A program made the translations under genes and the position numbers. From NCBI RefSeq assembly GCF_013358405.1, contig NZ_CP054836.1:3820001-3884000 (forward strand): a DNA stretch of 64,000 bases, given 5' to 3'. Positions 28,017 to 30,607 of this stretch are shown in pieces. The first letter of the stretch is position 1; each line of letters begins with the position of its first letter. Below the pieces are notes generated by a model. That model saw only the letters and a program-made list of their open reading frames with translations. It did no database searches and was not told the origin of the DNA. This DNA is from Oricola thermophila (GTDB lineage Bacteria; Pseudomonadota; Alphaproteobacteria; Rhizobiales; Rhizobiaceae).

Positions 28017-29150
28017 TTATATCACGTAGGAACGCAGCGGCTCGAAGCCGTTGAAGGCGACAGAAGAATAGGTTGTCGTGTAGGCGCCGGTCCCCTCGAT
28101 CAACACCTCGTCGCCGATCGTCAGCGAGACCGGAAGAGGGTAGGGGGCCTTCTCGTAGAGAACGTCTGCCGAATCGCATGTCGGTCCCGCGAGGACGCAG
28201 GGTTCCGTGATGTCGCCGTCGCGGGGTGTCACGATCCGGTAGCGGATCGCCTCGTCCATGGTCTCGGCAAGACCGCCGAACTTGCCGATGTCGAGATAGA
28301 CCCAGCGGACTTCGTCATCGTCCGATTTTTTCGAAACAAGCACGACTTCCGACTTGATGACGCCGGCGTTGCCGACCATGCCGCGGCCCGGCTCGATGAT
28401 GGTCTCCGGGATGCGGTTGCCGAAATGGTCGCGCAGGGCGTCGAATATTGCCCTTCCATAGGTTTCTGCCGACGGCACATCCTTCAGGTAACGGGTTGGA
28501 AAGCCGCCGCCCAAGTTGACCATTCTCAGCGTGATGCCTTTCTCGCCCAGACGGTCGAAAACCGTACGGGCATCAGCCAACGCGTCATCCCAGGCACCGG
28601 TGTCGACCATCTGCGAGCCGACATGGAACGACACGCCGTAGGCGTCGAGGCCGAGTCGGGCTGCCCGGGCAAGAACGTCGACCGCCATTTCCGGTGTGCA
28701 ACCGAATTTGCGCGACAGCGGCCATTCGGCACCTTCGCCCGATGTCAGGACCCGGCAGAACACGCGTGAGCCGGGGGCGGAACGGGCAATCTTCTCGACT
28801 TCCTCGACGCAGTCCACGGCAAAGAGCCGGATGCCCAGCCGGTATGCGCGGGCGATGTCGCGCTCCTTCTTTATCGTGTTGCCGAAGGAGATGCCGTCGG
28901 GCGTGGCGCCTGCTGCGAGAGCCATTTCTATTTCCGGCACCGAGGCGGTGTCGAAGCAGGAACCGAGGGACGCCAGCAGGCGCAGGATCTCCGGCGCCGG
29001 ATTGGCCTTCACGGCATAGAAGATGCGGCTGTCGGGGAGCGCCTTGCGGAATGCGCAATAGTTCTCGCGGACGACGTCCAGATCGACAACGAGGCAGGGG
29101 GAGGGAGGACGTCGGGTGGCGAGAAATTCCTGGATGCGGGCAGTCGTCAT
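28017..29150 (-). CDS. Ornithine (or lysine/ornithine) decarboxylase, PLP fold type III
   Basis: A 377-residue alanine-racemase-fold decarboxylase making putrescine (or cadaverine). The PLP lysine is Lys48 (YAVKAN); PLP-phosphate contacts are in NLGGGFPTRY and EPGRGMVG; the catalytic Cys is in GPTCDSADVL. Length and motifs match eukaryotic-like ODCs of rhizobia rather than the 700-residue E. coli SpeC. A long structured leader with an upstream ORF precedes it. It is convergent with udgX. Confidence 0.92.
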   Translation of the reverse strand: MTTARIQEFLATRRPPSPCLVVDLDVVRENYCAFRKALPDSRIFYAVKANPAPEILRLLASLGSCFDTASVPEIEMALAAGATPDGISFGNTIKKERDIARAYRLGIRLFAVDCVEEVEKIARSAPGSRVFCRVLTSGEGAEWPLSRKFGCTPEMAVDVLARAARLGLDAYGVSFHVGSQMVDTGAWDDALADARTVFDRLGEKGITLRMVNLGGGFPTRYLKDVPSAETYGRAIFDALRDHFGNRIPETIIEPGRGMVGNAGVIKSEVVLVSKKSDDDEVRWVYLDIGKFGGLAETMDEAIRYRIVTPRDGDITEPCVLAGPTCDSADVLYEKAPYPLPVSLTIGDEVLIEGTGAYTTTYSSVAFNGFEPLRSYVI

Positions 29151-29188
29151 GTCAGTATCCAATCGGCGAATCCGTGCAGCCGGGGCTG

Positions 29189-29275
29189 CGTGAAAACCTG
29201 AGGTTCCGGGCAAAACCGGCGTGCATGTGCCGGTCCCTTGCGGAACCACGTGAAATCTCAGGCCGGAAAAACCGG
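29189..29275 (-). repeat. Tandem imperfect 27-31 nt repeat in the decarboxylase leader
   Basis: Two copies, 29249-29275 and 29189-29219, share on the minus strand the order CCGGTTTT, CCGG, CTGAG or CTCAG, TTTCACG, and are 29 nt apart. Each can form a CCGG-based hairpin. They lie between the upstream ORF and the decarboxylase start, so they may form alternative structures. Confidence 0.5.
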
Positions 29276-29342
29276 CCTTGATTGCCATTGATTGGACGGG
29301 AGACCCCTCCGCACGTTTGGCAAGGATGGCTGTGTCTCTCAA

Positions 29343-29402
29343 CTACCCCGGCGTTTGGACCGCCAGACGAGTGATCGATAGACCCGACCGTCGTTGCTTC
29401 AA
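29343..29402 (-). CDS. Candidate 19-residue leader peptide upstream of ornithine decarboxylase
   Basis: A short ORF with a TTG start at 29402, GAGG (29408-29411) five bases upstream, and a TAG stop. The predicted peptide is (M)KQRRSGLSITRLAVQTPG: basic at the N-terminus and ending Pro-Gly-stop. The Shine-Dalgarno directly abuts a hairpin (29411-29435), and a second hairpin covers codons 13-18. It sits about 190 nt before the decarboxylase ATG. Leader peptides that arrest ribosomes in response to ornithine control speF in gammaproteobacteria; this peptide is not similar in sequence, so an analogous role is a hypothesis. Confidence 0.4.
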   Translation of the reverse strand: MKQRRSGLSITRLAVQTPG

Positions 29403-29529
29403 GATGTCCTCGCTGGTCCGGTTGGCCGGGCAGCGACCGGAGGGGTTAGCTCCGGGTACCTTGCCTTTCCCCTCACCAATACGAGAGGACGGCGGACACC
29501 CACAGGCACGTGCGACTTTGGGCGGTGCG

Positions 29530-29558
29530 GATATAGGCGGATATCTGTTGCGGATCAA
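29530..29558 (-). promoter_or_regulatory. Promoter for the ornithine decarboxylase leader
   Basis: On the minus strand TTGATC (29558-29553) and TATATC (29535-29530) are separated by 17 bp, giving a start near 29523. Each hexamer matches the sigma-70 consensus at four positions. Confidence 0.5.
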
Positions 29559-29701: not shown

Positions 29702-30607
29702 ATGGACACGCTGACACGCATGCGCGCCTTCATTGCGGTGGTCGAGAACGAGGGGTTTTCATCCGCGGCGCGGAAGATCGGACGTTCCAAGGCTCTGCTG
29801 TCGAAATATGTGCGAGAGCTCGAGGACGAACTCGGGGCGCTGCTGCTAAACCGCACCACTCGCCAGTTCTCGCTGACGGAACTCGGCCATACCTACTACA
29901 AGCGCGCCGTCGAAATCGTGCGCGAAATCGACACGCTGCGGGACATGGTACGCGACAGCCGCGAGGGCGTGCGTGGGCGCATCAAGGTTTCGGCGCCGCG
30001 AAGCTTCGCCGATGCTTCGCTCGATCAGGCCCTGATAGACTTTTGCGCCGCAAATCCGGAGATCGGTCTCGACATCCACCTGGATGACCGCTTCGTGGAT
30101 CTTGTGGAGGAAGGCTTCGATCTCGCCATCCGCGTGACCGTGCTCGAGGATTCCGCCCTGATTGCCCGTCGGTTGGCCCCGTTCCGGCTCAGGCTCGTCG
30201 CGACGCCGGAGACCATCCGCAAATTCGGCTTGCCGGAAAGGCCGGAGGATCTCGCCTCCAGACCCTGCATCATCGACACGAATGCGCGGCGGCGGAACAA
30301 CTGGGTGCTGAAAGGATCCGACGGCGCGGCACAGGTGGTGACGGTCGGCGGGCCGATCGAGGTCAACAGCCCGCTTTCGGCACGCGCTGCCGTTCTCGCG
30401 AATCTCGGCTTCGGACTTGCACCTGATTTCATCGTACGCGAGGACCTGAAGAACGGAGCACTGGTAGAGGTGCTGCCGGATTCCACCCCGGAAGAGGCAG
30501 GCATATATGCAGTCTACCCGCACAGGCGCTATCTGCCGGCCAAGGTGCGCGCATTGGTCGACTTCCTTGTCGAGTGGTTCAGGGACTACGAGAACAGGGC
30601 GCCATAA
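29702..30607 (+). CDS. LysR-family transcriptional regulator
   Basis: A 301-residue regulator. The HTH spans about residues 15-40 (NEGFSSAARKIGRSKALLSKYVRELE), followed by a LysR substrate domain (about 90-295). It belongs to the group that begins MDTLTRMRAF and often controls nearby oxidoreductase genes, but the neighbours here are the decarboxylase leader (divergent) and a metal-efflux pair (same strand, 43 bp on). The target is unknown. GAGAGGA lies upstream of the ATG. Confidence 0.88.
   Translation: MDTLTRMRAFIAVVENEGFSSAARKIGRSKALLSKYVRELEDELGALLLNRTTRQFSLTELGHTYYKRAVEIVREIDTLRDMVRDSREGVRGRIKVSAPRSFADASLDQALIDFCAANPEIGLDIHLDDRFVDLVEEGFDLAIRVTVLEDSALIARRLAPFRLRLVATPETIRKFGLPERPEDLASRPCIIDTNARRRNNWVLKGSDGAAQVVTVGGPIEVNSPLSARAAVLANLGFGLAPDFIVREDLKNGALVEVLPDSTPEEAGIYAVYPHRRYLPAKVRALVDFLVEWFRDYENRAP

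Follow-up and report, generated by a model that had tools for sequence, protein, structure and literature searches.

The leader of the ornithine decarboxylase gene (odc) of Oricola thermophila, analysed here within a window of 64,000 nucleotides (the whole stretch of DNA under study), is best read as a transcription attenuator with two states, from which termination yields the 148-nt "sRNA" ar45, a reading to which we assign a probability of roughly 0.7. The first half of the leader, overlooked in the preliminary description, belongs to the Rfam family RF02347 (ar45), with the whole model aligned at 128.2 bits against a curated cut-off of 40. After a gap of 9 nt, and likewise on the minus strand, follows a match to the speF leader family RF00518 (44.3 bits, cut-off 37), ahead of a COG0019-type decarboxylase. 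The speF RNA that had been suspected in this region is thereby confirmed: the region is the alphaproteobacterial speF leader, and it probably has a regulatory role. We consider it very likely that ar45 and the speF leader are one element with two mutually exclusive folds, referred to below as state T and state R (Table 1).

Table 1 Features of the odc leader and its surroundings (positions in the window, in order of transcription).
Feature	Position	Strand	Basis
-35-like hexamer TTGATC	29553..29558	-	Sequence
-10-like hexamer TATATC, 17-bp spacer from the -35-like hexamer	29530..29535	-	Sequence
Rfam RF02347 ar45 ("Alphaproteobacterial sRNA"), full length; read as state T, terminated part of the leader	29378..29523	-	128.2 bits, E 2.1e-29, model 1-148 of 148
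T1 5' strand GCCC (state T)	29520..29523	-	Comparison; ACCC/GGGU, CCGU/ACGG, GACGC/GCGUC in relatives
5' strand UCGCACG; first three bases with CGA in state T, or whole with D in state R (helix X)	29509..29515	-	Comparison
UGC of helix T3 (state T), partner of GCA in the core	29506..29508	-	Comparison
Helix I 5' strand, closing the variable insert; common to both states	29495..29499	-	5/5 pairs changed on both sides
Helix I 3' strand as counted; starts at the last G of the uORF GAGG	29404..29408	-	5/5 pairs changed on both sides
19-codon TTG ORF of the preliminary description; open in sequence, not conserved	29343..29402	-	Sequence and 217-leader comparison
Core AAGCAACGACG; 3' strand of T2/T3 (state T), 5' strand of helix Z (state R)	29389..29399	-	Comparison
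T1 3' strand GGGU (state T); GGGC in most relatives	29382..29385	-	Sequence
U-tract site, decayed in the window to CUAUCGA	29375..29381	-	At least 4 U of 7 in 210/217 leaders
Rfam RF00518 speF leader; read as downstream half of the same switch	29220..29368	-	44.3 bits, cut-off 37, E 1.4e-8
Hairpin P, UCCA loop	29348..29366	-	5/5 pairs changed on both sides
Segment C (GCCAUCCUUGC), partner of the core in state R (helix Z)	29320..29330	-	Covariation
Segment D (CGUGCGG), partner of UCGCACG in state R (helix X)	29309..29315	-	Comparison
Ornithine/lysine decarboxylase gene, 377 aa, ATG start	28017..29150	-	ORF list, similarity

The comparison was based on 217 anchored leaders (206 distinct), obtained from 127 ar45 matches in 127 of the 297 genomes of the order (113 above the Rfam cut-off and 14 below), 80 loci found via the decarboxylase, 15 speF matches in 15 of the 385 genomes of the class, and the window, minus six that were dropped. 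The weak model matches L240, L243 and L245-L247 were left out. Pairs were counted in an alignment (A1) of 76 leaders sharing less than 90% identity in the conserved blocks; its pair counts (T, X, I, Z and P) include locus L194, which is misanchored there and rightly anchored in the locus counts and folds. All 127 ar45 matches of the order-wide search, the window included, have odc downstream on the same strand and none was found elsewhere, while all 15 class-wide speF matches are followed by the gene in the same manner. The synteny of ar45 with odc argues for a leader rather than a separate small RNA. ar45 could nevertheless have a promoter and a terminator to itself and act in trans as an independent sRNA, next to which the speF leader would be a separate element. 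The passages devoted to it class ar45 as trans-encoded (type 1) in S. meliloti (PMC2873474), the Bartonella authors report its independent expression and suggest action in trans (PMC7717549), and the speF element has been described as possibly independently transcribed (PMC2573895). Against this stand the invariable position of ar45 just before odc and the fact that both of its strands pair, by comparison, with segments of speF, and we regard such independence as very unlikely; a side role of ar45 in trans is possible.

State T is the fold of the Rfam ar45 model, which is 148 nt long and has a U-tract at its end. It pairs GCCC with GGGC (T1), UCG with CGA (T2) and UGC with GCA (T3), and occupies the same strands as helices X and Z of state R. 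T1 reads GCCC/GGGC in 66 of the 76 leaders when identified by motif, and its letters change with pairing kept to ACCC/GGGU in L112-L114, L089 and L100, to CCGU/ACGG in L238 (with a fifth pair, C-G, read by eye) and to GACGC/GCGUC in L241, the last two loci coming from other families of the class and having been picked up by a model built for the joint element. Counted by fixed columns across the 76 leaders, T1 is 88.5% paired with 2 cells changed on both sides, a figure that is too low because MAFFT shifted the rows with longer spacers; a best-of-six-offsets rule, which is biased upwards, gives four of four pairs in 69 of 76. In a swap test with six types of 3' strand, a leader's own strands form runs of 4-5 bp in four types, of 3 bp in one and of 0 in L216, and swapped strands give 4 bp in 1 of 30 cases. 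T2 and T3 hardly vary by the fixed-column count, T2 is lost in L206-L210, T1 has at most 3 bp in L213 and L216, and the T stem is broken by internal loops. The comparative support for T1 can be described as thin, and the case for T2 and T3 as one of invariance and predicted folding. L241 (1500-1590, plus strand), which is only distantly related, has a T1 that differs in sequence yet is complementary, and a U5, ahead of a decarboxylase that is 32% identical; clear C or D segments were not seen by eye and T1 was not seen in its single-sequence fold, and it may represent a T-only form.

Behind T1, 210 of the 217 leaders have 4 or more U among 7 nt (background 3.4%), and 120 have 5 or more (background 0.8%). 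The leaders lacking this tract are the window, L111-L114, L135 and L142. In the Oricola-like clade of the window, the U-tract is lost while both folds are kept (T1 being GCCC/GGGU in the window), so that the switch may be weak or post-transcriptional there; it probably acts in one of these two ways in this clade. For most relatives, termination by state T is likely. At one further locus, L239, a recognisable core and an ODC gene are present with no clear U-tract.

State R consists of helices X, I, Z and P. Over the 76 leaders its 26 pairs are formed in 95.6% of 1922 cells, with 185 cells changed on both sides (sequences being counted, not independent events) and a covariation score of 0.308, which none of 500 shuffles reached and which slid partners approached to no more than 0.062. 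RNAalifold, used without a given structure, returned six of the seven X pairs (UCGCAC with the downstream GUGCGG) and eight of the nine Z pairs (the core with ACC..UUGC), as well as helices I and P. Helix Z alone has 58 cells changed on both sides and a score of 0.263, against at most 0.058 when slid, and at two of its pairs both bases depart from the commonest pair, in 29 rows for each of the two; pairs and pair types, two of the five measures applied to it, are no different from shuffles. Helix X is 94.7% paired and has 2 cells changed on both sides against 6 in one slid version, its score of 0.069 being above that of every slid version (at most 0.019). The comparative support is strong for Z, I and P and thin for X. 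The insert between the paired strands is about 10 nt long in L073 and L213 and reaches about 245 nt in L194, and it is therefore the core that is kept rather than the insert.

Three other pairings were considered. Helix Y (GCCU with AGGC) was weak and left out of the counts, and helix Q (GUCUCU with AGAGGC), with 89.5% of cells paired and little covariation, was also judged weak. The local hairpin GGCA/UGCC, which is part of the Rfam speF model and competes with Z for segment C, is paired in 92.8% of cells, none of them changed on both sides. The notion that strands with two partners each are invariant for that reason accounts for some of the columns only, and we do not claim it. In ten loci of one genus (L105, L106, L108 and L206-L212) the claimed start of the 19-codon ORF is GTG and the 5' strand is altered, in some cases with matching changes in D; they are the best natural variants for studying helix X.

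The predicted minimum-energy fold, which disregards pseudoknots and kinetics, depends on the length of the RNA. When the RNA ends just past the U-tract, T1 is predicted in 67 of the 76 leaders, and when it is extended past D, T1 is found in none, X in 73, Z in 73 and both X and Z in 70. Of the 76 leaders, 65 show the complete flip (T1, then X without T1), compared with 26 of 380 control RNAs in which the first 24 nt had been shuffled; T1 pairs are still formed in 152 of these controls, and Z, which does not use the shuffled bases, in 307. When six leaders are lengthened stepwise, Z replaces T2/T3 once about +62 to +68 is reached, and X forms at about +74, counted from T1. T1 is intermittent before X, several lengths between the U-tract and C have T2/T3 without T1, and one length of the window's leader (+116) returns to T. 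Forcing T2/T3 on the longer RNA has a median cost of 13.5 kcal/mol (8.4-20.4, n=76), the value for the window being 13.4. One feature expected of an attenuator, a pair of exclusive folds with evolutionary support, is present in the leader, the support being strong for Z, I and P and thin for X and T1.

Attenuators and riboswitches combine two exclusive folds, one of them closing at a U-tract, and lie in cis to a biosynthetic gene. The odc leader is alike in its two folds and its position, and in most relatives, though not in the window, also in the U-tract. The two folds, their exclusivity, the link to odc in cis and the U-tract emerge here from sequence comparison and folding, and the sequence of events would be as follows. 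As the polymerase leaves the promoter, the 5' end of the RNA (GCCC...UCGCACGUGC) would pair with GCAACGACG..GGGC to give state T. In most relatives this state would close at the U-tract, where a share of the polymerases would stop and release the ~148-nt ar45/smrC45; the published 148-nt RNA is consistent with such termination in vivo. Polymerases that escape would go on to make C and D, whereupon the core would change partners and form helix Z with C, and the 5' strand would form helix X with D. The full-length odc mRNA would then be in the much more stable state R, with T no longer favoured. How well T closes would presumably be set by a signal, the level of polyamines being the natural guess, and the benefit of state R may lie in the removal of T and possibly in shaping the ribosome site. 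X and Z were also considered, and rejected, as a classical antiterminator. Since C and D are located downstream of the U-tract, and are transcribed after it, state R cannot pre-empt the terminator in that way; unlike in textbook attenuators, the competing partners are made late and capture both strands of the terminator.

The downstream position of these partners would also suit a switch that acts on translation or mRNA decay, with folds that are real and a U-tract at which the polymerase pauses or Hfq binds. Such a switch would fit the window and its clade, which keep both folds in the absence of a U-tract, as well as the S. meliloti ar45 stated to co-purify with Hfq in a passage of PMC7717549; another block of conserved sequence ahead of the gene, CGUCUCCACCGCG-like, could lie opposite the ribosome site. 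The U-tract that follows T1 in 210 of 217 leaders and the 148-nt RNA described in PMC2873474 speak against it, and we consider it unlikely. The block in question lies between segment D and the gene and has the consensus CGtcTCCAccGcg (L195, L196, L073, L058 and others); CTCCA[TCA] occurs in this interval in 52 of the 76 leaders. Its UCUCC could base-pair with ribosome sites of the GGGAGA type. The block was not seen by eye at 29308-29151 of the window, the ribosome site of which is weak.

The preferred attenuator reading raises the question of what is sensed. That the leader senses a small molecule directly is doubtful. Slightly more doubtful still is an orphan riboswitch of polyamine synthesis, in which state T would be the sensing form, and an untried metabolite, or a polyamine that binds T only, would tighten the terminator during transcription. 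Homospermidine, a rhizobial polyamine, is an example of such a metabolite. Six metabolites were tried on the full A. tumefaciens leader by Corbino et al. in 2005, all with negative results (PMC1273637). By analogy with the 76 leaders folded here, the -400 to +3 RNA used in that work would prefer state R and hide the site in T, which suggests why the ligand test was negative. Were the riboswitch to exist, ar45 and speF would make up one class, and the refolding would commit the mRNA after escape.

The speF model of Corbino et al. (a conserved 5' end, a stem with a large insert and a long bulged stem-loop) resembles state R, and their speF section contains neither a terminator nor a second fold, the passages on termination concerning other elements or background (PMC1273637). 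The Rfam speF model as aligned differs from state R in covering the downstream half only, without X or Z; the window shares with this family a score above the cut-off and the same type of decarboxylase downstream. A 2013 survey gives the effector of speF as unknown in its entry on the element (PMC3766115). As for ar45 (smrC45/SmelC706, Bbar45), the window is a full-length match and the structure of the family is state T; the family is catalogued as an sRNA, trans-encoded in the S. meliloti listings, whereas here it would be that part of the odc leader which is terminated or folded as T. SmelC706/smrC45 is given as 148 nt long, trans-encoded and overlapping RF00518 in the relevant entries of PMC2873474 and PMC7143759. 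In the sections on these RNAs in Bartonella bacilliformis, ar45 is treated as an RNA of its own, a speF probe detects more than 700 nt and the function is called open (PMC7717549). The listing for Mesorhizobium huakuii, with an RF00518 RNA spanning 325 nt and Smr45C reported as not found (PMC5596092), is at odds with a 148-nt product in that strain. A literature search that covered few subscription papers returned none that, judged by title and consulted passages, joins ar45 and speF as two folds. If the attenuator reading is true, two Rfam families of unknown function merge into one regulatory RNA, a widespread "trans sRNA" becomes the by-product of a leader, and the search for the control of the step with which polyamine synthesis begins in rhizobia and their relatives is reopened. 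The design of the leader also yields mutational predictions that are precise and cheap to test.

The preliminary description had instead centred on a coupled 19-codon upstream ORF, expected to act by ribosome arrest. The TTG ORF exists, with the translation LKQRRSGLSITRLAVQTPG followed by a stop, and so does the GAGG (29411-29408) five bases upstream of it. Its start, frame and stop are another matter. The 217 leaders have at the position of the start TTG in 137, TTA in 42, GTG in 10, another triplet in 28 and ATG in none; a start codon is thus present in 147 and absent in 70. Among the 147, the 19-codon length is found in 6, and the frame runs to at least 40 codons or stays open in 108. The identical peptide is encoded in three of the 217 leaders (the window, L111 and L114), and in the close relatives L112 and L113 the frame is shifted. 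What is conserved at the ORF is the RNA core AAGCAACGACG. The proposed Shine-Dalgarno sequence, said to abut a hairpin, is present and is itself base-paired in the Rfam ar45 structure, its last G being the first base of the five counted pairs of helix I, each of which changes on both sides. A coupled leader peptide with ribosome arrest is therefore not supported. It fails by the condition for refutation that the preliminary description itself had set, in that start, frame and stop are not conserved and the conservation of the letters is accounted for by base pairing.

The Salmonella speF leader is likewise a long leader of an ODC gene with alternative folds; according to the account of orf34 in PMC6386406, it requires a translated upstream ORF, a leader peptide with consecutive Arg codons, and Rho, whereas no conserved upstream ORF of the orf34 type was found among the 217 leaders. 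A sensing peptide that stalls ribosomes could draw on the TTG, the GAGG at five bases and the two Arg codons of the ORF, and on the Salmonella parallel. With 70 leaders lacking the start codon, no common frame or stop, the same peptide in three leaders and letters explained by RNA pairing, its likelihood is close to negligible. Other start triplets, at alignment columns 16, 22, 368 and 378 (present in 68-75 of 75 rows, L194 excluded), lead to no common stop within the aligned stretch: the stops from columns 16 and 22 are scattered over the 75 rows, and the ORFs from columns 368 and 378 run beyond the aligned stretch in 66 and 65 of them, respectively. The UUG at column 368 is part of UUGCC in segment C (29319-29323 in the window) and is found in all 206 distinct leaders, preceded by an SD-like GAGG, GGAG or AGGA in 197 of them, the window not included. 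As a leader peptide it was rejected, its ORF having lengths from 2 to more than 100 codons in the 206 leaders and none in common; a ribosome initiating there would disturb X and Z.

The promoter and the structured leader of the preliminary description were borne out. The two promoter-like hexamers (29558-29553 and 29535-29530) were confirmed in the sequence with their 17-bp spacer, and transcription is inferred to start near 29523-29525 from the position of the -10-like hexamer. Upstream of the element, the loose pattern TTGNNN-N16-19-YANNN[TC] is found in 154 of the 215 leaders with enough flank, the spacer being 19 in 88 and 17 in 61. The structured leader of about 370 nt on the minus strand, which ends at the decarboxylase ATG (29150), was also confirmed, with a predicted fold of -165.5 kcal/mol (z -3.37; one of 100 shuffles as stable). 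The element is present in one copy in the O. thermophila genome. The closest solved relative of the decarboxylase by sequence is the lysine/ornithine decarboxylase 5gjm (214.7 bits); none of the NCBIfam models scored above its own cut-off on the protein, and the name ODC therefore rests on similarity and on the literature on the leader. A gene assigned by eye, from its ORF translation, to the LysR-type regulators (29702-30607, plus strand) is read divergently, with about 145 bp between it and the -35 hexamer of odc, and could add control of odc at the protein level. One of the related loci, L177, is from a record titled Bacillus subtilis SK6B4; its odc is 82% identical to that of the window and its leader resembles those of Pseudochrobactrum (L155, L166), and the record is probably a mislabelled or mixed assembly.
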